Of a stretch of DNA of 64,000 nt, positions 4,762-60,100 are shown piece after piece. Source of the DNA: Saccoglossus kowalevskii (lineage: Eukaryota > Hemichordata > Enteropneusta > Harrimaniidae). The position numbers and the translations under genes are program-made. The stretch spans positions 1 through 64,000 of the forward strand of contig NW_003107766.1 in assembly GCF_000003605.2 (NCBI RefSeq), read 5' to 3'. The stretch's first letter is position 1, and the number at the start of each line of letters is the position of its first letter. The notes below the pieces were generated by a model. It was not told the DNA's origin, made no database searches, and saw nothing but the letters and a program-made list of their open reading frames with translations.

Positions 4762-5082
4762 TCAAGGGACTGATTCACGTATCATTCAGAATAGACATTT
4801 TGACACTCAAGTGACTGATTCACGTATCATTCAGAATAGACATTTTGACACTCTAGGGACTGATTCACGAAAATTCAGAATAGACATTTTGACACTCAAG
4901 GGATTGGTTCACGTATCATTCAGAATAGACATTTTGACACTCAATGGACTGATTCACGTATCATTCAGAATAGACACTTTGGCACTCAAGGAATTGGTTC
5001 ACGTATCATTCAGAATAGACATTTTGACACTCAATGGACTGATTCACGTATCATTCAGAATATACATTTTGACACTCAAGGG

Positions 5083-5098
5083 ACTTCATTCAGAATAT
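5083..5098 (+). repeat. 35-bp deleted monomer class (first of 15)
   Basis: Ten bases (GATTCACGTA) are missing, which joins GGGACT directly to TCATTCAG. The same junction occurs at about 7,461, 10,881, 12,041, 13,024, 16,981, 18,283, 20,517, 30,267, 32,866, 41,185, 47,156, 52,367, 61,087 and 61,886. All are followed by an AATATACATT unit, so they descend from one deletion spread by amplification. Five copies (7,461, 12,041, 30,267, 32,866, 61,087) share a further ACTTCAATCAG change. Each deletion shifts the open frame. Confidence 0.9.
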
Positions 5099-6274
5099 AC
5101 ATTTTGACACTCAAGGGATTGGTTCAAGTATCATTCAGAATAGACATTTTGACACTCAAGGGATTGGTTCACGTATCATTCAGAATAGACATTTTGACAC
5201 TCAAGGGATTGATTCACGTATCATTCAGAATAGACATTTTGACACTCAAGCGATTGGTTCACGTATCATTCAGAATAGACATTTTGACACTCAAGGGATT
5301 GATTCAAGTATCATTCAGAATAGACATTTTGACACTCAAGGGATTGGTTCACGTATCATTCAGAATAGACATTTTGACACTCAAGGGATTGGTTCACGCA
5401 TCATTCAGAATAGACATTTTGACACTCAAGGGATTGATTCAAGTATCATTCAGAATAGACATTTTGACACTCAGGGGATTTATTCAAGTATCATTCAGAA
5501 TTGACATTTTGACACTCTAGAGACTGATTCACGTATCATTCAGAATAGACATTTTGACACTCAAGTGATTGGTTCACGTATCATTCAGAATAGACATTTT
5601 GACACTCAAGGGACTGATTCACGTATCATTCAGAATAGACATTTTGACACTCAAGGGACTGATTCACGTATCATTCAGAATAGACATTTTGACACTCAAG
5701 AGATTGGTTCACGTATCATTCACAATAGACATTTTGACATTCAAAGGATTGGTTCACATATCATTCAGAATAGACATTTTGACACTCAAGGGACTGATTC
5801 ACGTATCATTCAGAATATACATTTTGACACTCAAGGGACTGATTCACGTATCATTCAGAATAGACATTTTGACACTCAGGGGATTTATTCAAGTATCAAT
5901 CAGAATAGACATTTTGACACTCTAGGGACTGATTCACGTATCATTCAGAATAGACATTTTGACACTCAAGGGACTGATTCACGTATCATTCAGAATAGAC
6001 ATTTTGACACTCAAGGGATTGGTTCACGTATCATTCAGTATAGACATTTTGACACTCAAGGGATTGATTCACGTATCATTCAGAATAGACATTTTGACAC
6101 TCTAGGGATTGATTCACGTATCATTCAGAATAGACATTTTGACACTCAAGGGATTGGTTCACGTATCATTCAGAATAGACATTTTGACACTCAAGGGACT
6201 GATTCACGTATCATTCAGAATAGACATTTTGACACTCAAGGGATTGATTCAAGTATCATTCAGAATAGACATTT

Positions 6275-6289
6275 GTATGGTGTGATAGG
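6275..6289 (+). other. 15-bp non-satellite patch inside one monomer
   Basis: After GAATAGACATTT the expected 13 bases TGACACTCAAGGG are replaced by GTATGGTGTGATAGG, and normal sequence resumes at ATTGGTTCATG. The change adds 2 bp net and shifts the open frame. The replacement shares little with the unit and I saw it nowhere else in the window. It could be filler DNA from a repaired break or a local assembly error. Confidence 0.85.
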
Positions 6290-8536
6290 ATTGGTTCATG
6301 TATCATTCAGAATAGACATTTTGACACTCAAGGGATTCATTCACGTATCATTCAGAATAGACATTTTGACACTCTAGGGATTGGTTCACGTATCATTCAG
6401 AATAGACATTTTGACACTCAAGGGGTTGGTTCACGTATCATTCAGAATACACATTTTGACACTCAAGGGATTGGTTCACGTATCATTCAGAATAGACATT
6501 TTGACACTCAATGGACTGATTCACGTATCATTCAGAATAGACACTTTGGCACTCAAGGAATTGGTTCACGTATCATTCAGAATAGACATTTTGACACTCA
6601 AGGGATTGGTTCACGTATCATTCAGAATAGACATTTTGACACTCAATGGACTGATTCACGTATCATTCAGAATAGACATTTTGACACTCAAGGGATTGGT
6701 TCACGTATCATTCAGAATAGACATTTTGACACCCAAGGGACTGATTCACGTATCATTCAGAATAGACATTTTGACACTCAAGGGATTGGTTCACGTATCA
6801 TTCAGAATAGACATTTTGACACTCAAGGGATTGGTTCACGTATCATTCAGAATAGACATTTTGACACTAAAGGGACTGATTCACGTATCATTCAGAATAG
6901 ACATTTTGACACTCAAGGGACTGATTCATGTATCATTCAGAATAGACATTTTTTTGACACTCAAGGGACTGATTCACGTTTCATTCAGAATAGACATTTT
7001 GACACTCAAGGGATTGGTTCACGTATCATTCAGAATAGACATTTTGACACTCAAGGGATTGATTCGCGCATCATTCAGAATAGACATTTTGACACTCAAG
7101 GGATTGGTTCACGTATCATTCAGAATAGACATTTTGACTCTCAAGGGATTGGTTCACGTATCATTCAGAATAGACATTTTGACACTCAGGGATTGGTTCA
7201 CGTATCATTCAGAATACACATTTTGACACTCAAGGGATTGGTTCACGTATCATTCAGAATAGACATTTTGACACTCAATGGACTGATTCACGTATCATTC
7301 AGAATAGACACTTTGGCACTCAAGGAATTGGTTCACGTATCATTCAGAATAGACATTTTGACACTCAAGGGATTGGTTCACGTATCATTCAGAATAGACA
7401 TTTTGACACTCAATGGACTGATTCACGTATCATTCAGAATAGACATTTTGACACTCAAGGGACTTCAATCAGAATATACATTTTGACACTCAAGGGATTG
7501 ATTCAAGTATCATTCAGAATAGACATTTTGACACTCAAGGGTTTGGTTCACGTATCATTCAGAATATACATTTTCACACTCAAGGGACTGATTCACGTAT
7601 CATTCAGAATAGACATTTTGACACTCAAGGGATTGGTTCACGTATCATTCAGAATAGACATTTTGACACTCAAGGGATTGGTTCACGTATCATTCAGAAT
7701 AGACATTTTGACACTAAAGGGACTGATTCACGTATCATTCAGAATAGACATTTTGACACTCCAGGGACTGATTCATGTATCATTCTGAATAGACATTTTT
7801 TTGACACTCAAGGGACTGATTCACGTATCATTCAGAATAGACATTTTGACACTCAAGGGATTGGTTCACGTATCATTCAGAATAGACATTTTGACACTCA
7901 TGGGATTGATTCAAGTATCATTCAGAATAGACATTTTGACACTCAAGGGAATTGGTTCACGTATCATTCAGAATAGACATTTTGACACTCAAGGGACTGA
8001 TTCACGTATCATTCAGAATATACATTTTGACACTCAAGGGATTGATTCAAGTATCATTCAGAATAGACATTTTGACACTCAAGGGATTGGTTCACGTATC
8101 ATTCAGAATAGACATTTTGACACTCAAGGGATTGATTCAAGTATCATTCAGAATAGACATTTTGACACTCAAGGGATTGGTTCACGTATCATTCAGAATA
8201 GACATTTTGACACTCAAGGGATTGATTCACGTATCATTCAGAATAGACATTTTGACACTCTAGGGATTGGTTCACGTATCATTCAGAATAGACATTTTGA
8301 CACTCAAGGGGTTGGTTCACGTATCATTCAGAACAGACATTTTGACACTCAATGGACTGATTCACGTATCATTCAGAATATTCATTTTGACACTCAATGG
8401 ACTGATTCACGTATCATTCAGAATATTCATTTTGACACTCAAGGGATTGATTCACGTATCATTCAGAATAGACATTTTGACACTCAAGGGATTGGTTCAC
8501 GTATCATTCAGAATAGACATTTTGACACTCTAGGGA

Positions 8537-9200: not shown

Positions 9201-12200
9201 CACTCAAGGGATTGATTCAAGTATCATTCAGAATAGACATTTTGACACTCAGGTGATTGGTTCACGTATCATTCAGAATAGACATTTTGACACTAAAGGG
9301 ACTGATTCACGTATCATTCAGAATAGACATTTTGACACTCAAGGGACTGATTCACGTATCATTCAGAATAGACATTTTGACACTCAAGGGATTGGTTCAC
9401 GTATCATTCAGAATAGACATTTTGACACTCAAGGGATTGGTTCACGTATCATTCAAAATAGACATTTTGACACTCAAGGGATTGATTCACGTATCATTCA
9501 GAATAGACATTTTGACACTCAAGTGATTGGTTCACGTATCATTCAGAATAGACATTTTGACACTCAAGGGACTGATTCACGTATCATTCAGAATAGACAT
9601 TTTGACACTCAAGGGACTGATTCACGTATCATTCAGAATAGACATTTTGACACTCAAGAGATTGGTTCACGTATCATACACAATAGACATTTTGACATTC
9701 AAAGGATTGGTTCACATATCATTCAGAATAGACATTTTGACACTCAAGGGACTGATGCACGTATCATTCAGAATATACATTTTGACACTCAATGGACTGA
9801 TTCACGTATCATTCAGAATAGACATTTTGACACTCAGGGGAATTATTCAAGTATCATTCAGAATAGACATTTTGACACTCTAGAGACTGATTCACGTATC
9901 ATTCAGAATAGACATTTTGACACTCAAGGGACTGATTCACGTATCATTCAGAATAGACATTTTGACACTCAAGGGATTGGTTCACGTATCATTCAGAATA
10001 ATCATTTTGACACTCAAGGGACTGATTCACGTATCATTCAGAATAGACATTTTGACACTCAAGGGACTGATTCATGTATCATTCAGAATAGACATTTTTT
10101 TGACACTCAAGGGACTGATTCACGTATCATTCAGAATAGACATTTTTGACACTCAAGGGATTGGTTCACGTATCATTCAGAATAGACATTTTGACACTCA
10201 AGGGACTGATTCACGTATCATTCAGAATAGACATTTTGACACTCAAGGGATTGGTTCACGTATCATTCAGAATAGACATTTTGACACTCAAGGGATTGGT
10301 TCACGTGTCATTCAGACTAGACATTTTGACACTAAAGGGACTGATTCACGTATCATTCAGAATAGACATTTTGACACTCAAGGGACTGATTCACGTATCA
10401 TTCAGAATAGACATTTTTTTGACACTCAAGGGACTGATTCACGTATCATTCAGAATAGACATTTTGACACTAAAGGGACTGATTCACGTATCATTCAGAA
10501 TAGACATTTTGACACTCAAGGGACTGATTCACGTATCGTTCAGAATAGACATTTTGACACTCAAGCGACTGATTCACGTATCATTCAGAATAGACATTTT
10601 GAAACTCAGGGGATTGATTCGCGCAGCATTCAGAATAGACATTTTGACACTCAATGGACTGATTCACGTATCATTCAGAATATACATTTTGACACTCAAG
10701 GGATTGATTCAAGTATCATTCAGAATAGACGTTTTGACACTCAAGGGATTGGTTCACGTATCATTCAGAATAGACATTTTGACACTCAAAGGGATTGATT
10801 CAAGTATCATTCAGAATAGACATTTTGACACTCAATGGACTGATTCACGTATCATTCAGAATATTCATTTTGACACTCAAGGGACTTCATTCAGAATATA
10901 CATTTTGACACTCAAGGGATTGATTCAAGTATCATTCAGAATAGACATTTTGACACTCAAGGGATTGGTTCACGTATCATTCAGAATAGACATTTTGACA
11001 CTCTAGGGATTGGTTCACGTATCATTCAGAATAGACATTTTGACACTCAAGGGGTTGGTTCACGTATCATTCAGAACAGACATTTTGACACTCAATGGAC
11101 TGATTCACGTATCATTCAGAATATTCATTTTGACACTCAAGGGATTGATTCAAGTATCATTCAGAATAGACATTTTGACACTCAAGGGATTGGTTCACGT
11201 ATCATTCAGAATAGACATTTTGACACTCAAGTGATTGATTCACGTATCATTCAGAATAGACACTTTGGCACTCAAAGAATTGGTTCATGTATGATTCAGA
11301 ATAGACATTTTGACACTCAAGGGATTGATTCGTGTATCATTCAGAATAAACATTTTGACACTCAAGGGACTGATTCACGTATCATTCAGAATAGACATTT
11401 TGACACTCAAGGGATTGGTTCACGTATCATTCAGAATAGACATTTTGAAACTCAGGGGATTGATTCGCGCAGCATTCAGAATAGACATTTTGACACTCAA
11501 GGGACTGATTCACGTATCATTCAGAATTGACATTTTGACAATCAATGGACTGATTCACGTATCATTCAGAATATACATTTTGACACTCAAGGGATTGATT
11601 CAAGTATCATTCAGAATAGACATTTTGACACTCAATGGACTGATTCACGTATCATTCAGAATATACATTTTGACACTCAAGGGATTGATTCAAGTATCAT
11701 TCAGAATAGACATTTTGACACTCAAGAGATTGGTTCACGTATCATTCTGAATAGACATTTTGACACTCAAGTGATTGATTCACGTATCATTCAAAATAGA
11801 CATTTTGACACTCAAGGGGATGGTTCACGTATCATTCAGAATACACATTTTGACACTCAAGGGATTGGTTCACGTATCATTCAGAATAGACATTTTGACA
11901 CTCAATGGACTGATTCACGTATCATTCAGAATAGACACTTTGGCACTCAAGGAATTGGTTCACGTATCATTCAGAATAGACATTTTGACACTCAAGGGAT
12001 TGATTCGTGTATCATTCAGAATAAACATTTTGACACTCAAGGGACTTCAATCAGAATATACATTTTGACACTCAAAGGATTGATTCAAGTATCATTCAGA
12101 ATAGACATTTTGACACTCAAGGGATTGGTTCACGTATCATTCAGAATAGACATTTTGACACTCAAGGGACTGATTCACGTATCATTCAGAATAGACATTT

Positions 12201-14090: not shown

Positions 14091-14655
14091 CAAGGATTGG
14101 TTTCACGTATCATTCAGAATAGACATTTTGACACTCAAGGGATTGGTTCACGTATCATTCAGAATAGACATTTTGACACTCAAGGGATTGGTTCACGTAT
14201 CATTCAGAATAGACATTTTGACACTCAAGGGATTGGTTCACGTATCATTCAGAATAGACATTTTGAAACTCAGGGGATTGATTCGCGCAGCATTCAGAAT
14301 AGACATTTTGACACTCAAGGGACTGATTCACGTATCATTCAGAATAGACATTTTGACAATCAAGGGAATGATTCACGTATCATTCAGAATATACATTTTG
14401 ACACTCAAGGGATTGATTTCACGTATCAATTCAGAATTAGACATTTGACACTCAAAGGGATTGGTTCACGTATCATTCAGAATAGACATTTTGACACTTT
14501 AGGGATTGGGTTCAAGTATCATTCAGAATAGACATTTTGACACTCAAAGGGGTTGGTTCACGTATCATCAGAACAGACATTTTGACACTCAATGGACTGA
14601 TTCACGTATCATTCAGAATATTCATTTTGACACTCAAAGGGATTGATTTCAAGTA
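14091..14655 (+). repeat. Segment with about ten single-base indels
   Basis: Extra or missing single bases cluster here: CAAGGATTGG, GGTTTCACG, GATTTCACG, ATCAATTCAG, GAATTAGAC, CATTTGACAC, CTCAAAGGG, ATTGGGTTC, CTCAAAGGGG and ATCATCAG. Most change a homopolymer or short run by one base. The flanking array is nearly free of such changes over kilobases, so this is either a poorly polished stretch or an old junction. Confidence 0.85.
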
Positions 14656-16539
14656 TCATTCAGAATAGACATTTTGACACTCAAGGGATTGGTTCACGTA
14701 TCATTCAGAATAGACATTTTGACACTCAAGGGATTGATTCACGTATCATTCAGAATAGACATTTTGACACTCAAGGGATTGGTTCACGTATCATTCAGAA
14801 TAGACATTTTGACACTCAGGTGATTGGTTCACGTATCATTCAGAATAGACATTTTGACACTCAAGGGACTGATTCACGTATCATTCAGAATAGACATTTT
14901 GACACTCAAGGGACTGATTCACGTTTCATTCAGAATAGACATTTTGACACTCAAGAGGTTGGTTCACGTATCATTCACAATAGACATTTTGACATTCAAG
15001 GGATTGGTTCACATATCATTCAGAATAGACATTTTGACACTCAAGGGACTGATTCACGTATCATTCAGAATATACATTTTGACACTCAAGGGACTGATTC
15101 ACGTATCATTCAGAATAGACATTTTGACACTCAGGGGATTTATTCAAGTATCATTCAGAATAGACATTTTGACACTCTAGAGACTGATTCACGTATCATT
15201 CAGAATAGACATTTTGACACACAAGGGACTGATTCACGTATCATTCAGAATAGACATTTTGAAACACAAGGGACTGATTCACGTATCATTCAGAATAGAC
15301 ATTTTGACACTCAAGGGATTGGTTCACGTATCATTCAGAATAGACATTTTGACACTCAAGGGATTGATTCACGTATCATTCAGAATAGACATTTTGACAC
15401 TCAAGGGGTTGGTTCACGTATCATTCAGAACAGACATTTTGACACTCAATGGACTGATTCACGTATCATTCAGAATATTCATTTTGACACTCAAGGGATT
15501 GATTCAAGTATCATTCAGAATAGACATTTTGACACTCAAGGGATTGGTTCACGTATCATTCAGAATAGACATTTTGACACTCAAGGGATTGATTCACGTA
15601 TCAATCAGAATAGACATTTTGACACTCAATGGACTGATTCACGTATCATTCAGAATATTCATTTTGACACTCAAGGGATTGATTCAAGTATCATTCAGAA
15701 TAGACATTTTGACACTCAAGGGATTGGTTCACGTATCATTCAGAATAGACATTTTGACACTCAAGGGATTGATTCACGTATCATTCAGAATAGACATTTT
15801 GACACTCAAGTGATTGGTTCACGTATCATTCAGAATAGACATTTTGACACTCAAGGGACTGATTCACGTATCATTCAGAATAGACATTTTGACACTCAAG
15901 GGACTGATTCACGTATCATTCAGAATAGACATTTTGACACTCAAGAGATTGGTTCACGTATCATACACAATAGACATTTTGACATTCAAAGGATTGGTTC
16001 ACATATCATTCAGAATAGACATTTTGACACTCAAGGGACTGATTCACGTATCATTCAGAATATACATTTTGACACTCAATGGACTGATTCACGTATCATT
16101 CAGAATAGACATTTTGACACTCAGGGGATTTATTCAAGTATCATTCAGAATAGACATTTTGACACTCTAGAGACTGATTCACGTATCATTCAGAATAGAC
16201 ATTTTGACACTCAAGGGACTGATTCACGTATCATTCAGAATAGACATTTTGACACTCAAGGGATTGGTTCACGTATCATTCAGAATAATCATTTTGACAC
16301 TCAAGGGACTGATTCACGTGTCATTCAGAATAGACATTTTGACACTCAAGGGACTGATTCATGTATCATTCAGAATAGACATTTTTTGACACTCAACGGA
16401 CTGATTCACGTATCATTCAGAATAGACATTTTGACACTCAAGGGATTGATTCACGTATCATTCAGAATAAACATTTTGACACTCAAGGGATTGGTTCACG
16501 TATCATTTAGAATAGACATTTGACACTCAAGGGATTGGT

Positions 16540-17370: not shown

Positions 17371-19800
17371 ACACTCAAGGGATTGATTCACGTATCATTT
17401 AGAATAGACATTTTGACACTCAAGGGATTGGTTCACGTATCATTCAGAATAGACATTTTGACACTCAATGGGACTGATTCACGTATCATTCAGAATAGAC
17501 ATTTTGACACTCAAGGGATTGGTTCACGTATCATTCAGAATAGACATTTTGACACTCAAGGGATTGGTTCACGTATTATTCAGAATAGACATTTTGACAC
17601 TAAAGGGACTGATTCACGTATCATTCAGAATAGACATTTTGACACTCAAGGGACTGATTCATGTATCATTCAGAATAGACATTTTTTTGACACTAAAGGG
17701 ACTGATTCACGTATCATTCAGAATAGACATTTTGACACTCAAGGGATTGGTTCACGTATCATTCAGAATAGACATTTTGACACTCAAGGGATTGATTCAA
17801 GTATCATTCAGAATAGACATTTTGACACTCAAGGGATTGGTTCACGTATCATTCAGAATAGACATTTTGACACTCAAGGGACTGATTCACGTATCATTCA
17901 GAATATACATTTTGACACTCAAGGGATTGATTCAAGTATCATTCAGAATATACATTTTGACACTCAAGGGATTGGTTCACGTATCATTCAGAATCGACAT
18001 TTTGACACTCAAGGGATTGATTCAAGTATCATTCAGAATAGACATTTTGACACTCAAGGGATTGGTTCACGTATCATTCAGAATAGACATTTTGACACTC
18101 AAGGGATTGATTCACGTATCATTCAGAATAGACATTTTGACACTCTAGGGATTGGTTCACGTATCATTCAGAATAGACATTTTGACACTCAAGGGGTTGG
18201 TTCACGTATCATTCAGAACAGACATTTTGACACTCAATGGACTGATTCACGTATCATTCAGAATATTCATTTTGACACTCAAGGGACTTCATTCAGAATA
18301 TACATTTTGACACTCAAGGGATTGATTCAAGTATCATTCAGAATAGACATTTTGACACTCAAGGGATTGGTTCACGTATCATTCAGAATAGACATTTTGA
18401 CACTCAAGGGATTGATTCAAGTATCATTCAGAATAGACATTTTGACACTCAAGGGATTGGTTCACGTATCATTCAGAATAGACATTTTGACACTCAAGGG
18501 ATTGATTCACGTATCATTCAGAATAGACATTTTGACACTCAAGGGATTGGTTCACGTATCATTCAGAATAGACATTTTGACACTCTAGGGATTGGTTCAC
18601 GTATCATTCAGAATAGAAATTTTGACACTCAAGGGATTGGTTCACGTATCATTCAGAATAGACATTTTGACACTCAAGGGATTGATTCAAGTATCATTCA
18701 GAATAGACATTTTGACACTCAAGGGGTTGGTTCACGTATCATTCAGAACAGACATTTTGACACTCAATGGACTGATTCACGTATCATTCAGAATATTCAT
18801 TTTGACACTCAAGGGATTGATTCAAGTATCATTCAGAATAGACATTTTGACACTCAAGGGATTGGTTCACGTATCATTCAGAATAGACATTTTGACACTC
18901 AAGGGATTGATTCACGTATCATTCAGAATAGACATTTTGACACTCAAGGGATTGGTTCACGTATCATTCAGAATAGACATTTTGACACTAAAGGGACTGA
19001 TTCACGTATCATTCAGAATAGACATTTGACACTCAAGGGATTGATTCACGTATCATTCAGAATATACATTTTGACACTCAAGGGATTGGTTCACGTATCA
19101 TTCAGAATAGACATTTGACACTCTAGGGAATGATTCACGTATCATTCAGAATAGACATTTGACACTCAAGGGATTGGTTCACGTATCATTCAGAATAGAC
19201 ATTTTGACACTCTAGGGACTGATTCACGTATCATTCAGAATAGACATTTTTGACACTCAAGGGATTGATTCACGTATCATTCAGAATATACATTTTGACA
19301 CTCAAGGGATTGGTTCACGTATCATTCAGAATAGACATTTTGACACTCAAGGGATTGATTCACGTATCATTCAGAATAGACATTTTGACACTCAAGGGAA
19401 TGATTCACGTATCATTCAGAATGGACATTTTGACACTCAAGGGATTGATTCACGTATCATTCAGAATAGACATTTTGACACTCCAGGGACTGATTCACGT
19501 ATCATTCAGAATAGACATTTTGACACTCAAGGGATTGGTTCACGTATCATTCAGAATAGACATTTTGACACTCAAGGGATTGATTCACGTATCATTCAGA
19601 ATAGACATTTTGACACTCAAGGGACTGATTCACGTATCATTCAGAATAGACATTTTGACACTCTAGGGACTGATTCACATATCATTCAGAATAGACATTT
19701 TGACACTCAAGGGATTGGTTCACGTATCATTCAGAATAGACATTTTGACACTCAAGGGATTGGTTCACGTATCATTCAGAATAGACATTTTGACACTCAA

Positions 19801-20115
19801 GGGACTGTTCACGAATCATTCCAAAAAAACATTTTGACACTCAAGGGACTGATTCACATGTCATTCATAATAGACCTTTTGACTTGCCGGGACTGATTCC
19901 GTATCATTCAAAAGGACTTTTTGACACTCCCGAGATTGGGTCACATATCATTCAAAGTAGACTTTTTTACACTCCCGATATTGGTTCGGATATCATGCCG
20001 AGTCGACTTTTTGACAGTCCCGATATTGGGTCACATGACTCGCGGAGGCCACTTGTTGACTCGCCCGGGATTGGTTCAAGTGACTCTCAGAACACACATT
20101 TTGACTGCCAAGGGA
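19801..20115 (+). repeat. Island of strongly diverged 45-bp units
   Basis: About seven units depart sharply from the array consensus. Four central ones (19,916-19,960, 19,961-20,005, 20,006-20,050 and 20,051-20,095) are each exactly 45 bp, so divergence is by substitution. They share features absent elsewhere: ACTTTTT or ACTTG in place of ACATTTT, and CTCCCGA, GTCCCGA or CGCCCGG in place of CTCAAGG. They are GC- and CpG-richer and include GTCGAC at 20,002 and CCCGGG at 20,064. The left flank decays over two units (a run of seven A at 19,823-19,829, then a shortened unit near 19,900). The right flank returns to normal from about 20,111. Likely readings are a relic of an older or sister satellite, or a former array edge now internal. 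Confidence 0.9.
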
Positions 20116-20535
20116 TTTATTCAAGTATCATTCAGAATAGACATTTTGACACTCTAGAGACTGATTCACGTATCATTCAGAATAGACATTTTGACTCACA
20201 AGGGACTGATTCACCTATCATTCAGAATAGACATTTTGACACACAAGGGACTGATTCACGTATCATTCAGAATAGACATTTTGACACTCAAGGGATTGGT
20301 TCACGTATCATTCAGAATAGACATTTTGACACTCAAGGGATTGATTCACGTATCATTCAGAATAGACATTTTGACACTCTAGGGATTGGTTCACGTATCA
20401 TTCAGAATAGACATTTTGACACTCAAGGGGTTGGTTCACGTATCATTCAGAACAGACATTTTGACACTCAATGGACTGATTCACGTATCATTCAGAATAT
20501 TCATTTTGACACTCAAGGGACTTCATTCAGAATAT

Positions 20536-21148
20536 ACATTTTGACACTCAAGGGATTGGTTCACGTATCATTCAGAATAGACATTTTGACACTCAAGGGA
20601 TTGATTCACGTATCATTCAGAATAGACATTTTGACACTCAAGGGATTGGTTCACGTATCATTCAGAATAGACATTTTGACACTCAGGTGATTGGTTCACG
20701 TATCATTCAGAATAGACATTTTGACACTCAAGGGACTGATTCACGTATCATTCAGAATAGACATTTTGACACTCAAGGGACTGATTCACGTATCATTCAG
20801 AATATACATTTTGACACTCAAGAGGTTGGTTCACGTATCATTCACAATAGACATTTTGACAATCAAGGGATTGGTTCACATATCATTCAGAATAGACATT
20901 TTGACACTCAAGGGACTGATTCACGTGTCATTCAGAATATACATTTTGACACTCAAGGGATTTATTCAAGTATCATTCAGAATAGACATTTTGACACTCT
21001 AGAGACTGATTCACGTATCATTCAGAATAGACATTTTGACTCACAAGGGACTGATTCACCTATCATTCAGAATAGACATTTTGACACACAAGGGACTGAT
21101 TCACGTATCATTCAGAATAGACATTTTGACACTCAAGGGACTGATTCA
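20536..21148 (+). repeat. 0.6-kb duplicate (partner 62,856-63,468)
   Basis: It matches 62,856-63,468 at an offset of 42,320 bp, including the rare GACAATCAAGGGATTGG with CACATATC, CACGTGTC before AATATACAT, and GACTCACAAGGG with CACCTATC. It begins just after the 35-bp monomer at 20,517 and lies immediately downstream of the diverged island. Confidence 0.85.
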
Positions 21149-21719
21149 CGTATCATTCAGAATATACATTTTGACACTCAAGGGATTGATTCACGTATCA
21201 TTCAGAATACACAATTTGACACTCAAGGGATTGGTTCACGTATCATTCAGAATAGACATTTTGACACTCAATGAACTGATTCACATATCATTCAGAATAG
21301 ACACTTTGGCACTCAAGGAATTAGTTCACGTATCACTCAGAATAGACATTTTGACACTCAGGGATTGGTTCACGTATCATTCAGAATAGACATTTTGAAA
21401 CTCAAGGGATTGATTCACGTATCATTCAGAATAAACATTTTGACACTTAAGGGATTGATTCGCGTATCATTCAGAAAAAACATTTTGACACTCAAGGGAT
21501 TGATTCAAGTATCATTCAGAATAGACATTTTGAAACTCAGGGGATTGATTCGCGCAGCATTCAGAATAGACATGTTGATGCTTAAGGGACTGATTCACGT
21601 ATCATTCAGAATAGACATTTTTTTGACACTCAATGGACTGATTCACGTATCATTCAGAATAGACATTTTGACACTCAATGGACTGGTTCACGTATCATTC
21701 AGAATAGACATTTTGACAC

Positions 21720-34605: not shown

Positions 34606-37600
34606 GCACTCAAGGGATTGATTCGTGTATCATTCAGAATAAACATTTTGACACTCAAGGGATTGATTCACGTATCATTCAGAATAGACATTTTGACACT
34701 CAAGGGATTGGTTCACGTATCATTCAGAATAGACATTTTGACACTCTAGGGATTGGTTCACGTATCATTCAGAATAGAAATTTTGACACTCAAGGGATTG
34801 GTTCACGTATCATTCAGAATAGACATTTTGACACTCAAGGGATTGATTCAAGTATCATTCAGAATAGACATTTTGACACTCAAGGGGTTGGTTCACGTAT
34901 CATTCAGAACAGATATTTTGACACTCAATGGACTGATTCACGTATCATTCAGAATATTCATTTTGACACTCAAGGGATTGATTCAAGTATCATTCAGAAT
35001 AGACATTTTGACACTCAAGGGATTGGTTCACGTATCATTCAGAATAGACATTTTGACACTCAAGGGATTGATTCACGTATCATTCAGAATAGACATTTTG
35101 ACACTCAAGGGATTGGTTCACGTATCATTCAGAATAGACATTTTGACACTAAAGGGACTGATTCACGTATCATTCAGAATAGACATTTTGACACTCAAGG
35201 GACTGATTCATGTATCATTCAGAATAGACATTTTTTTGACACTCAAGAGACTGTTTCACGTATCATTCAGAATAGACATTTTGACACTCAGGGGATTTAT
35301 TCACGTATCATTCAGAATAGACATTTTGACACTCAAGGGACTGATTCACGTATTATTCAGAATAGACATTTTGACACTCAAGGGACTGATTCGCGTATCA
35401 TTCAGAATAAACATTTTGACACTCAAGGGACTGATTCGCGTATCATTTAGAATAGACATTTTGACACTAAAGGGATTGGTTCACGTATCATTCAGAATAG
35501 ACATTTTGACACTCAAGGGACTGATTCACGTATCATTCAGAATAGACATTTTGACACTCAAGGGATTGGTTCACGTATCATTCAGAATAATCATTTTGAC
35601 ACTCAAGGGACTGATTCGAGTATCATTCAGAAAAGACATTTTGACACTCAAGGGACTGATTCACGTATCATTCAGAATAGACATTTTGACACTCAAGCGA
35701 CTGATTCACGTATCATTAAAAATAGACATTTTGACACTCAAGGGATTGGTTCACGTATCATTCAGAATAGACATTTTGACACTCAAGGGATTGGTTCACG
35801 TATCATTCAGAATAGACATTTTGACACTCAAGGGACTGATTCACGTATCATTCAGAATAGACATTTTGACACTCAAGGGACTGATTCACGTATCATTCAG
35901 AATAGACATTTTGACACTCTAGGGACTGATTCACGAAAATTCAGAATAGACATTTTGACATTCAAGGGATTGGTTCACGTATCATTCAGAATAGACATTT
36001 TGACACTCAAGGGACTGATTCACGTATCATTCAGAATAGACATTTTGACACTCAAGAGGTTGGTTCACGTATCATTCACAATAGACATTTTGACATTCAA
36101 GGGACTGATTCACATATCATTCAGAATAGACATTTTGACACTCAAGGGACTGATTCACGTATCATTCAGAATAGACATTTTGACACTCAAGAGATTGGTT
36201 CACATATCATTCAGAATAGACATTTTGACACTCAAGAGATTGGTTCACATATCATTCAGAATAGACATTTTGACACTCAAGAGATTGGTTCACATATCAT
36301 TCAGAATTAGACAATTTGACACTCAAGGGAATGATTCACGTATCATTCAGAATAGACATTTTGACAATCAAGGGATTGGTTCACGTATCATTCAGAATAG
36401 ACATTTTGACATTCAGGTGATTGGTTCACGTATCATTCAGAAATAGACATTTTGACACTCAAGGGATGATTCACGTATCATTCAGAATAGACATTTTTGA
36501 CACTCAAGGGACTGATTCACGTATCATTCAGAATAGACATTTTGACACTCAAGAGTTTGGTTCACGTATCATTCACAATAGACATTTTGACATTCAAGGG
36601 ATTGGTTTCACATATCATTCAGAATAGACATTTTGACACTCAAGGGACTGATTCACGTATCATTCAGAATAGACATTTTGACACTCAGGTGATTGGTTCA
36701 CGTATCATTCAGAATAGACATTTTGACACTCAAGGGACTGATTCACGTATCATTCAGAATAGACATTTTAACACTCAAGGGACTGATTCACGTATCATTC
36801 AGAATAGACATTTTGACACTCAAGAGTTTGGTTCACGTATCATTCACAATAGACATTTTGACATTCAAGGGATTGGTTCACATATCATTCAGAATAGACA
36901 TTTTGACACTCAAGGGATTGGTTCACGTATCATTCAGAATAGACATTTTGACACTCAGGTGATTGGTTCACGTATCATTCAGAATAGACATTTTGACACT
37001 CAAGGGACTGATTCACGTATCATTCAGAATAGACATTTTGACACTCAAGGGACTGATTCACGTATCATTCAGAATAGACATTTTGACACTCAAGAGGTTG
37101 GTTCACGTACCATTCACAATAGACATTTTGACATTCAAGGGATTGGTTCACATATCATTCAGAATAGACATTTTGACACTCAAGGGACTGATTCACGTAT
37201 CATTCAGAATATACATTTTGACACTCAAGGGATTTATTCAAGTATCATTCAGAATAAACATTTTGACACTCTAGAGACTGATTCACGTATCATTCAGAAT
37301 AGACATTTTGACACACAAGGAACTGATTCACGTATCATTCAGAATAGACATTTTGACACACAAGGGACTGATTCACGTATCATTCAGAATAGACATTTTG
37401 ACACTCAAGGGACTGATTCATGTATCATTCAGAATAGACATTTTTTTGACACTCAACGGACTGATTCACGTATCATTCAGAATAGATATTTTGACACTCA
37501 AGGGACTGATTCATGTGTCATTCAGAATAGACATTTTGACACTCAAGGGATTGATTCAAGTATCATTCAGAATAGACATTTTGACACTCAAGGGATTGGT

Positions 37601-38459: not shown

Positions 38460-38985
38460 ATCATTCAGAATAAACATTTTGACACTCAAGGGACTGATTC
38501 AAGTATCTTTCAGAATAGACATTTTGACACTCTAAGGACTGATTCACGTATCATTCAGAATACACATTTGACACTCAAGGGATTGGTTCACGTATCATTC
38601 AGAATAGACATTTTGACACTCAAGGGATTGGTTCACATATCATTCAGAATAGACATTTTGACACTCAAGGGAATGATTCACGTATAATTCAGAATAGACA
38701 TTTTGACACTCAAGGGACTGATTCACGTATCATTCACAATAGACATTTTGACACTCAAGAGATTGGTTCACGTAACATTCACAATAGACATTCTGACACT
38801 CAAGGGATTGATTCACGTATCATTCAGAATAGCGATTTTGACACCAAGGGATTGATTCACGTATCATTCAGAATAGACATTTTGACACTATAGGGACTGA
38901 TTCACGAACATTCAGAATAGACATTTTGACATTCAAGGGATTGGTTCACGTATCATTCAGAATAGCCATTTTGACACTCAAGGGA
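38460..38985 (+). repeat. Mildly degenerate segment
   Basis: About 11 units carry private changes rarely seen elsewhere: GTATCTTTCAG, CTCTAAGGACTG, AATACACATTTGAC, CGTAACATTCAC, CATTCTGACAC, AATAGCGATTTTG, GACACCAAGGG, CACTATAGGG, CGAACATTCAG and AATAGCCATT. There is no long stop-free frame across it. It separates the 36-38 kb units from the 39-40 kb 630-bp repeat. Confidence 0.78.
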
Positions 38986-39060
38986 ATGATTCACGTATCA
39001 TTCAGAATATACATTTTGACACTCAAGGGACTGATTCACGTATCATTCAGAATAGACATT

Positions 39061-42860: not shown

Positions 42861-43185
42861 AATAGACATTTTGACACTCAAGGGACTGATTCACGTATCA
42901 TTCAGAATGGACATTTTGACACTCAAGGGATTGATTCACGTATCATTCAGAATAGACATTTTGACACTCCAGGGACTGATTCACGTATCATTCAGAATAG
43001 ACATTTTGACACTCAAGGGATTGGTTCACGTATCATTCAGAATAGACATTTTGACACTCAAGGGATTGATTCACGTATCATTGAGAATAGACATTTTGAC
43101 ACTCAAGGGACTGATTCACGTATCATTCAGAATAGACATTTTGACACTCTAGGGACTGATTCACGTATCATTCAGAATAGACATT

Positions 43186-46100
43186 TTGACACTCAAGGGA
43201 TTGGTTCACGTATCATTCAGAATAGACATTTTGACACTCAAGGGATTGGTTCACGTATCATTCAGAATAGACATTTTGACACTCAAGGGATTGGTTCACG
43301 TATCATTCAGAATAGACATTTTGACACTCAAGGGATTGGTTCACGTATCATTCAGAATAGACATTGTGACACTCAAGGGGTTGGTTCACGTATCATTCAG
43401 AATACACATTTTGACACTCAAGGGATTGGTTCACGTATCATTCAGAATAGACATTTTGACACTCAAGGGACTGATTCATGTATCATTCAGAATAGACATT
43501 TTGACACTCAAGGGATTGGTTCACGTATCATTCAGAATACACATTTTGACACTTAAGGGATTGGTTCACGTATCATTTAGAATAGACATTTTGACACTCA
43601 AGGGACTGATTCATGTATCATTCAGAATAGACATTTTGACACTCAAGGGATTGATTCACGTATCATTTAGAATAGACATTTTGACACTCAAGGGACTGAT
43701 TCATGTATCATTCAGAATAGACATTTTGACACTCAAGGGATTGGTTCACGTATCATTCAGAATACACATTTTGACACTTAAGGGATTGGTTCACGTATCA
43801 TTCAGAATAGACACTTTGGCACTCAAAGAATTGGTTCATGTATGATTCAGAATAGACATTTTGACACTTAAGGGATTGGTTCACGTATCATTCAGAATAG
43901 ACACTTTGGCACTCAAAGAATTGGTTCATGTATGATTCAGAATAGACATTTTGACACTCAAGGGATTGATTCGCGTATCATTCAGAATAAACATTTTGAC
44001 ACTCAAGGGATTGGTTCACGTATCATTTAGAATAGACATTTTGACACTCAAGGGATTGGTTCACGTATCATTCAGAATAGACATTTTGACACTCAAGGGA
44101 TTGGTTCACGTATCATTTAGAATAGTCATTTTGACACTCAAGGGATTGGTTCACGTATCATTCAGAATAGACATTTTGACACTCAAGGGATTGATTCACG
44201 TATCATTTAGAATAGACATTTTGACACTCAAGGGATTGGTTCACGTATCATTCAGAATAGACATTTTGACACTCAAGGGATTGGTTCACGTATCATTCAG
44301 AATACACATTTTGACACTTAAGGGATTGGTTCACGTATCATTCAGAATAGACACTTTGGCACTCAAAGAATTGGTTCATGTATGATTCAGAATAGACATT
44401 TTGACACTCAAGGGATTGATTCGCGTATCATTCAGAATAAACATTTTGACACTCAAGGGACTGATTCACGTATCATTCAGAATAGACACTTTGGCACTCA
44501 AGGAATTGGTTCACGTATCATTCAGAAAAGACATTTTGACACTCAAGGGATTGATTCGTGTATCATTCAGAATAAACATTTTGACACTCAAGGGACTGAT
44601 TCACGTATCATTCAGAATAGACATTTTGACACTCAAGGGATTGGTTCACGTATCATTCAGAATAGACATTTTGACACTCAAGGGATTGGTTCACGTATCA
44701 TTCAGAATAGACATTTTGACACTCAAGGGATTGATTCACGTATCATTTAGAATAGACATTTTGACACTCAAGGGATTGGTTCACGTATCATTCAGAATAG
44801 ACATTTTGACACTCAAGGGATTGTTCACGTATCATTTAGAATAGACATTTTGACACTCAAGGGATTGGTTCACGTATCATTCAGAATAGACATTTTGACA
44901 CTCAAGGGATTGGTTCACGTATCATTCAGAATACACATTTTGACACTTAAGGGATTGGTTCACGTATCATTCAGAATAGACACTTTGGTACTCAAAGAAT
45001 TGGTTCATGTATGATTCAGAATAGACATTTTGACACTCAAGGGATTGATTCGCGTATCATTCAGAATAAACATTTTGACACTCAAGGGACTGATTCACGT
45101 ATCATTCAGAATAGACACTTTGGCACTCAAGGAATTGGTTCACGTATCATTCAGAAAAGACATTTTGACACTCAAGGGATTGATTCGTGTATCATTCAGA
45201 ATAAACATTTTGACACTGAAGGGACTGATTCACGTATCATTCAGAATAGACATTTTGACACTCAAGGGATTGGTTCACGTATCATTCAGAATAGACATTT
45301 TGAAACTCAGGGGATTGATTCGCGCAGCATTCAGAATAGACATTTTGACACTCAAGGGACTGATTCACGTATCATTCAGAATAGACATTTTGACAATCAA
45401 TGGACTGATTCACGTATCATTCAGAATATACATTTTGACACTCAAGGGATTGATTCAAGTATCATTCAGAATAGACATTTTGACACTCAATGGACTGATT
45501 CACGTATCATTCAGAATATACATTTTGACACTCAAGGGATTGATTCAAGTATCATTCAGAATAGACATTTTGACACTCAAGGGATTGGTTCACGTATCAT
45601 TCAGAATAGACATTTTGACACTCAAGTGATTGATTCACGTATCATTCAGAATAGACATTTTGACACTCAAGGGGATGGTTCACGTATCATTCAGAATACA
45701 CATTTTGACACTCAAGGGATTGGTTCACGTATCATTCAGAATAGACATTTTGACACTCAATGGACTGATTCACGTATCATTCAGAATAGACACTTTGGCA
45801 CTCAAGGAATTGGTTCACGTATCATTCAGAATAAACATTTTGACACTCAAGGGACTGATTCACGTATCATTCAGAATAGACACTTTGGCACTCAAGGAAT
45901 TGGTTCACGTATCATTCAGAAAAGACATTTTGACACTCAAGGGATTGATTCGTGTATCATTCAGAATAAACATTTTGACACTCAAGGGACTGATTCACGT
46001 ATCATTCAGAATAGACATGTTGACACTCAAGGGATTGGTTCACGTATCATTCAGAATAGACATTTTGAAACTCAGGGGATTGATTCGCGCTGCATTCAGA

Positions 46101-49165: not shown

Positions 49166-49897
49166 TTGACATTCAAGGGATTGGTTCACGTAATATTCAG
49201 AATAGACATTTTGACACTCAAGGGACTGATTCACGTATCATTCAGAATATACATTTTGACACTCAAGGGACTGATTCACGTATCATTCAGAATAGACATT
49301 TTGACACTCAGTCGATTTATTCAAGTATCATTCAGAATAGACATTTTGACAATCTGGAGACTGATTCACGTATCATTCAGAATAGACATTTTGACACTCA
49401 AGGGGTTGGTTCACATATCATTCAGAATCTACATTTTGACCCTCAAGGGATTGATTCAAGTATCATTCAGAATAGACATTTTGACACTCAAGGGATTGGT
49501 TCACGTATCATTCAGAATAGACATTTTGACACTCAAGGGATTGATTCACGTATCATTCAGAATAGACATTTTGACACTCAAGGGATTGGTTCACGTATCA
49601 TTCAGAATAGACATTTTGACACTCAAGGGATTGGTTCACGTATCATTCAGAATAGACATTTTGACACTCAAGGGACTGATTCACGTATCATTCAGAATAG
49701 ACATTTTGACACTCAAGGGACTGATTCACGTATCATTCAGAATAGACATTTTGACACTCAAGAGATTGGTTCACGTATCATTCACAATAGACATTTTGAC
49801 ACTCAAGGGACTGATTCACGTATCATTCACAATAGACATTTTGACACTCAAGGGACTGATTCACGTGTCATTCAGAATAGACATTTTGACACTCTAG
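49166..49897 (+). repeat. 0.7-kb block, copy at 49 kb
   Basis: This copy has a CACATATC monomer just before AATCTACAT, and CAAGTATC where two sister copies have CAAGTGTC. It is followed at 49,909 by a CGAAAATTC monomer, as in the 3-kb and 26-kb copies, so the block extends as a larger module through about 50.6 kb. Confidence 0.84.
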
Positions 49898-59869: not shown

Positions 59870-60100
59870 GACACTCAAGGATTGATTCACGTATCATTCA
59901 GAATAAACATTTTGACACTCAAGGACTGATTCACGTATCATTCAGAATAGACACTTTGGCACTCAAGGAATTGGTTCACGTATCATTCAGAATAGACATT
60001 TGACACTCAAGGGATTGATTCGCGTATCATCAGAAAAGACATTTGACACTCAAGGGATTGATCACGTATCATTCAGAATAGACATTTGACACTCAAGGGA
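59870..60100 (+). repeat. Short indel cluster before the 60.1-kb block
   Basis: CTCAAGGATTG, CTCAAGGACTG, CATTTGACAC (three times), ATCATCAG and GATTGATCACG all lack one base. The cluster stops just before the 60,146 copy of the 0.66-kb block. Confidence 0.83.

Follow-up and report, generated by a model that had tools for sequence, protein, structure and literature searches.

The satellite array analysed here contains a divergent island of about 300 bp, which is real as a feature of this sequence; we favour, with evenly balanced confidence, the reading that it consists of monomers of the array itself which escaped homogenisation and, on one copy, diverged rapidly, the bases of the island being taken as genuine. 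The island is unique in the window (the whole stretch analysed, 64,000 bp of contig NW_003107766.1 of Saccoglossus kowalevskii), keeps the register of the array, shares same-base changes among its units, is bordered by exactly copied segments, has no assembled sister array, and has changed one-sidedly with respect to an ordinary block at 36.1 kb.

The island within its host array

19808..20108, + strand: divergent tract (island), in register, within 7 units, no exact 45-bp copy in the window
19808..19895, + strand: left shoulder units (indices 441 and 442), carrying 6 and 9 substitutions respectively, plus a single deletion apiece
19896..20073, + strand: four-unit core subfamily of the ACTTTTT..CTCCCGA type, branch support 96/95
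20074..20118, + strand: right shoulder unit (index 447), inside which the exact copy restarts at 20109
19680..19807, + strand: left flank, with exact copies of 128 bp at 49551 and of 125 bp at 43211 and 44606
20109..20295, + strand: right flank, with 187-bp exact matches at 20954 and 63274
36108..36333, + strand: ordinary block that is probably the island's nearest relative, its G6A and G39A variants following the island's order unit by unit
15 copies, including 5042-5121, 7421-7500, 10843-10922 and 20479-20558: paired short unit, 41 + 39 bp (10-bp deletion across the unit junction)

The window consists of a single head-to-tail 45-bp satellite in 1425 units, 1288 of which are exactly 45 bp long. 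The contig (79,914 bp) carries the same satellite from its first to its last bases, in 1780 units including a one-base remnant, and because it is all array, end to end, both of its ends are breaks within the array. The genome search covered an assembly of 572,110,611 bases in 4830 contigs. A 29-base consensus word matched 1685 times, forward only, when 3 mismatches were allowed, and the contig alone also gave 1685; an exact 32-base word occurred in 622 copies genome-wide and 622 on the contig. By these two words the assembled satellite is confined to this contig.

The array is homogenised, exact 45-bp repeats covering 97.6% of the window and exact copies reaching 808 bp. Counting the island, the 1425 units comprise 356 distinct monomers, of which 207 occur a single time. 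Multi-unit blocks, marked among others by the 15 copies of the paired short unit, recur across it in a mosaic pattern. These recurrent blocks and long exact copies resemble ordinary higher-order or segmental satellite structure, from which the array differs in that no strong fixed higher-order period stood out among lags of 1 to 699 units. The 45-bp unit is free of stops in two forward frames, giving open reading frames of up to 1124 codons with 15-residue repeats; no convincing sign of coding was found in these frames, which are often broken elsewhere by stops or shifts, and the island substitutions, distributed 33/22/16 by column modulo 3, gave no convincing codon-position signal.

The preliminary description placed the island inside an otherwise homogenised array, and this was borne out: seven consecutive units, 19,808-20,118, form the only divergent run among the 1425 units of the window. 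Their substitutions number 6, 9, 6, 11, 14, 19 and 12 (unit starts 19808, 19852, 19896, 19939, 19984, 20029 and 20074), and elsewhere in the window 8 or more substitutions are reached only by two isolated units, at 6247 and 21548. No exact 45-bp copy covers 19,808-20,108 (301 bp), the longest such gap in the window, the runner-up measuring 159 bp. When each 300-bp window of the whole contig (531 windows, step 150) was compared by megablast, over 250 bp or more, with its best-matching copy elsewhere, the mismatches had a median of 2 and a 99th percentile of 14; the island reached 69 mismatches per 300 bp, far outside the normal divergence of its host array, and the highest non-overlapping window reached 15.

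The island units align in register to the array monomer over the full unit. Leaving out the common variants A0G and T42C, the changes amount to 71 substitutions, 4 one-base deletions and no insertions, and the last four units lack indels despite 10-18 substitutions each. Among the 38 distinct island variants, 24 occur no more than 5 times in the other 1418 units of the window, including 9 that occur in none of them; A36C together with A37C was found in 5 of the 1780 contig units, all in the island (the four core units and unit 19852). The share of transitions (13 of 38) is near the array's own (38 of 103). The CpG enrichment claimed earlier was likewise recovered, the island holding 13 CpG in 303 bp (19,806-20,108), where 4207 other windows averaged 6.1 and had at most 12. 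CpG content is no clock here, because at the monomer's one CpG C-to-A changes (124 in the array) outnumber C-to-T (48) and G-to-A (42), and strong CpG decay is not evident.

Exact copies 120 bp or longer stop at 19,807 on the left and restart at 20,109 on the right. Exactly copied segments thus adjoin both edges, and recent within-array copying therefore stopped at the tract. The gradient of divergence that had been described on both sides holds on the left; on the right there is none, the exact copy being back at 20,109. It had also been proposed that the island is a former array edge trapped when two arrays fused, as a divergent stretch flanked on both sides by homogeneous array might suggest. 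Such a fusion is extremely improbable: exact-repeat links across 20 kb stand at or above expectation (1.06, 1.16 and 1.03 times, for three length cut-offs), the difference in monomer make-up across the island (0.57) lies within the 0.44-0.68 of the other split points tested, and strand and register are identical on both sides. The flank types of the island recur in differing contexts in the array, and a search for an empty site by way of the 15 short-unit pairs, 24 G44T units and the flank types showed no locus matching both flanks.

The DNA folding of the tract was unexceptional (z -0.84), Rfam returned nothing at gathering score for 19,500-20,500, and a tRNA search of the window found none. 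Exact patterns had no match in collections of genome contigs and viral contigs, blastn of 19,700-20,300 had none among plasmids or phages, and six 19- or 20-base words had none in literature text. As to the host group, a search for PF00504 gave no match, where 1 of 14 control genomes gave one, and PF00379 matched in no control.

Changes shared among the island units

The seven island units share the same altered base in 54 pairs, against 18.6 +/- 4.2 expected (0 of 20,000 simulations), while different-base changes at one column show no excess (21 against 28.2 expected). Repeated 7-mers private to the island number 14 (null mean 2.1; 0 of 1000), and for private repeated 6-, 8- and 9-mers the observed value was reached in 3, 1 and 4 of 1000 simulations. 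Neighbouring units share more, 46 of the 5040 unit orders being equally good. Since the same altered bases are shared far beyond chance, independent read noise is rejected; the random error profile of long reads, rich in indels and with errors unshared between units, is not that of the island. An excess of same-base changes without one of different-base changes looks like shared descent. Such sharing is produced by common descent, and a context-dependent miscall would produce it too; independent errors or mutations would not produce it. At base-phasing offsets of +2 and -2, 28 of the 71 changes match in each case (mean 16.8, sd 5.3), a figure inflated by the repeated shared changes.

The same result bears on localised hypermutation, that is, independent mutations in place in one burst of error-prone synthesis. 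A hypermutable phase has been proposed for divergent alpha-satellite arrays (PMC9549924; PMC2729386), and the one-sidedness of the change (48:1, see below) would suit it; independent changes at favoured columns would also yield different bases, and the excess is confined to same-base changes, so that we consider this explanation very unlikely.

A tree of 94 rows, 78 of them different, combined the island with the 60 most frequent monomers, 20 divergent monomers and 7 taken from the 36-kb block. A 96/95 branch separates units 19896, 19939, 19984 and 20029 from the rest of the island (three units) and from all 87 rows outside it, in a tree of 45 columns and low resolution whose bootstrap is not yet settled. 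The core is thus not nested as singletons among common monomers, in agreement with the preliminary description, whose four units with a shared alternative consensus are also right in substance: ACTTTTT is present in three and the fourth has ACTTGTT, whilst CTCCCGA is exact in two core units and the next two carry GTCCCGA and CGCCCGG. The three shoulder units are placed among ordinary monomers, and to take all seven as one group requires 4 label changes on the tree, not 1. The tree is unrooted and therefore silent on which monomer type is older.

The separation of the core from all 87 non-island rows, together with the high CpG of the island, would fit the introduction into the array of a sister-satellite fragment or of a relic ancestral monomer, two origins that had been suggested. 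A 23-base core word of the CCCGATATTGGG type, searched with up to 3 mismatches in 572 Mb, was found in three places, all in the island. No sister array is therefore assembled, and the suggestion of a sister satellite, which called for arrays of the CCCGATATTGGG-type unit elsewhere in the genome, finds no match outside the island. The consensus word likewise gave as many matches genome-wide (1685, up to 3 mismatches) as on this contig alone, half-unit (22-bp) periodicity, a sign of relic origin, was not in excess, and the island bears unit variants of the 36.1-kb block. Either form of this explanation appears unlikely.

The probable relative at 36.1 kb

The best collinear match of the island lies at 36,063-36,378, with 67 mismatches (next best 72, mean 80.6). 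BLAST against the window gave 36,046-36,383 as best (77%), and against the whole genome 36,148-36,295 (82%, the next at 81%); megablast, restricted to alignments of 250 bases or more, placed the best copies of two windows, those beginning at 19,801 and 19,951, at 43,062 and 20,796, not at 36.1 kb. Units 442-445 match all nine of the variants of the 36.1-kb block, three of these matches being to very common variants (A0G twice, T42C once), and the outer units 441, 446 and 447 match 1/4, 2/4 and 0/1. G6A occurs with G39A in just four units of the contig, two in the island and two in the 36-kb block.

When the labels were permuted in 1000 trials, the observed score was reached 2 times for units 442-445, equally often for 443-445, and 13 times for units 442-446; with all seven units included it was reached 370 times, and site 42,799 then scores best. 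Permutation of the unit order returned 4 of 2000 when seven units were used and 2 of 120 when the five-unit core was. The unit stretch for these tests was picked after looking at the data. Judged from the pattern of variants, kinship of the island with the 36.1-kb block is likely, not certain. At 36308-36466, overlapping the end of this block, lies the window's longest stretch, after the island, that no exact 45-bp copy covers.

The nine shared variants of units 442-445 point to descent from the array's own monomers. Over five units the island carries 48 private substitutions and the 36-kb block 1, counted against the consensus with two common variable columns left out, and among 352 control pairs the asymmetry was at most 9 against 0. 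Elapsed time alone would not give 48:1, unless homogenisation from off-contig copies keeps the 36-kb type clean. The changes, being so one-sided, are therefore no measure of age, and the ancestral relic loses ground on both counts; "old-looking", as the units had been called, is doubtful for a tract whose probable closest relative is an ordinary block and whose changes fall 48:1 on its own side.

If the unit order of the 36.1-kb block has been kept, A36C, A37C and A24T, present in all or most of the island units, did not arise by simple local duplication. In that case the conflict between unit order and shared changes needs very short conversions or a systematic process, technical ones included.

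Proposed escape from homogenisation or systematic error

The reading as an escaped tract competes with a serious alternative, a systematic artefact of base-calling or consensus, to which we assign a real though minority probability. Such an artefact would consist of a badly called stretch, in one or a few long reads, over an ordinary block of the 36.1-kb type, with the same context miscalled alike in every unit. It settles the conflict between the unit order and the shared changes, and accounts for the 48 changes against 1, for the abruptness of the edges and for the tract being found just once in 572 Mb. Nothing but array makes up the contig, whose two ends lie within it, and a second patch, of indel type, occurs at 14.4 kb. 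There, at 14,416-14,691, ten one-base indels, mostly insertions, fall within 275 bp with almost no substitutions (10 gaps and 2 mismatches in 300 bp against the copies at 60046, 8435 and 52575), which looks like an unpolished long-read patch, with a signature that differs from that of the island. The run-length indels of that patch are thus unlike the island, whose last four units carry their many substitutions in register and without indels; the sets of shared changes are moreover specific to neighbours, and these changes are absent from ordinary units that have the same context at other places on the contig.

For nanopore data, callers are described as swapping telomere repeats for false repeats, some of the same period (PMC9414165). 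The likeness to the island lies in the substitution of the same base in successive units, TTAGGG to TTAAAA keeping the period, and such period-keeping miscalls speak for an artefact. Those artefacts are described for short telomere-type repeats, whereas the island unit is 45 bp long. The exact 45-bp spacing of the central units, which had been held against random assembly noise, does argue against random noise; it does not argue against systematic miscalling of this period-keeping kind (PMC9414165).

For the tract of the array's own monomers speaks the nature of the changes, in-register substitutions unlike the indel patch of the contig. Against it count the conflict between unit order and shared changes, the 48:1 asymmetry, the sharp edges and the lack of a second copy, which fit an artefact as well, and the match to the 36.1-kb block, which is not robust (for instance 370/1000 when all seven units are included). 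In this mechanism the tract would be a piece of the array's own satellite, in register, whose units have a common history, and the mismatches, through poor pairing with the neighbours, may have barred it from further copying while changes accrued.

Divergent tracts beside homogeneous arrays are already known, the present case being small and internal. Tracts more than 10% apart occur beside homogeneous alpha-satellite arrays, and a hypermutable phase was proposed for them (PMC9549924; PMC2729386). The island resembles these "dead" tracts in that it belongs to the same satellite as the homogeneous array it adjoins, and at 77% identity to its best relative over 340 bp it is also over 10% divergent, the value used for a relic tract and well above the 1-2% of homogeneous arrays. 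It may also show, like them, more change than age predicts (PMC9549924; PMC2729386). The alpha-satellite tracts are described at array scale and as lying mostly at edges or flanks, whereas the island is about 300 bp long, is not alpha satellite and, in place of the flank position expected of a relic satellite tract, has homogeneous array on both sides in the contig.

It is tempting to speculate, though we hold it improbable, that the array is alive and homogenising and that the tract has been caught just after a burst of change, its sister block surviving unmutated 16 kb away; in such a case the hypermutable phase, so far proposed from dead alpha-satellite layers, could be viewed directly through relative rates. 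Should the bases be real, a few units can evade homogenisation even where the array is being actively copied, and comparison with the probable sister block lets change be measured on either side. If the island is an artefact, it cleanly illustrates how an error that keeps the period would be mistaken, by a reader or in a monomer tree, for an ancient relic.

Smaller private or divergent spots, of one or a few units each, were seen in the window at 6262-6301, 21548-21592 and 38762-38986, and another lies beyond it, at 75861-75905 of the contig.
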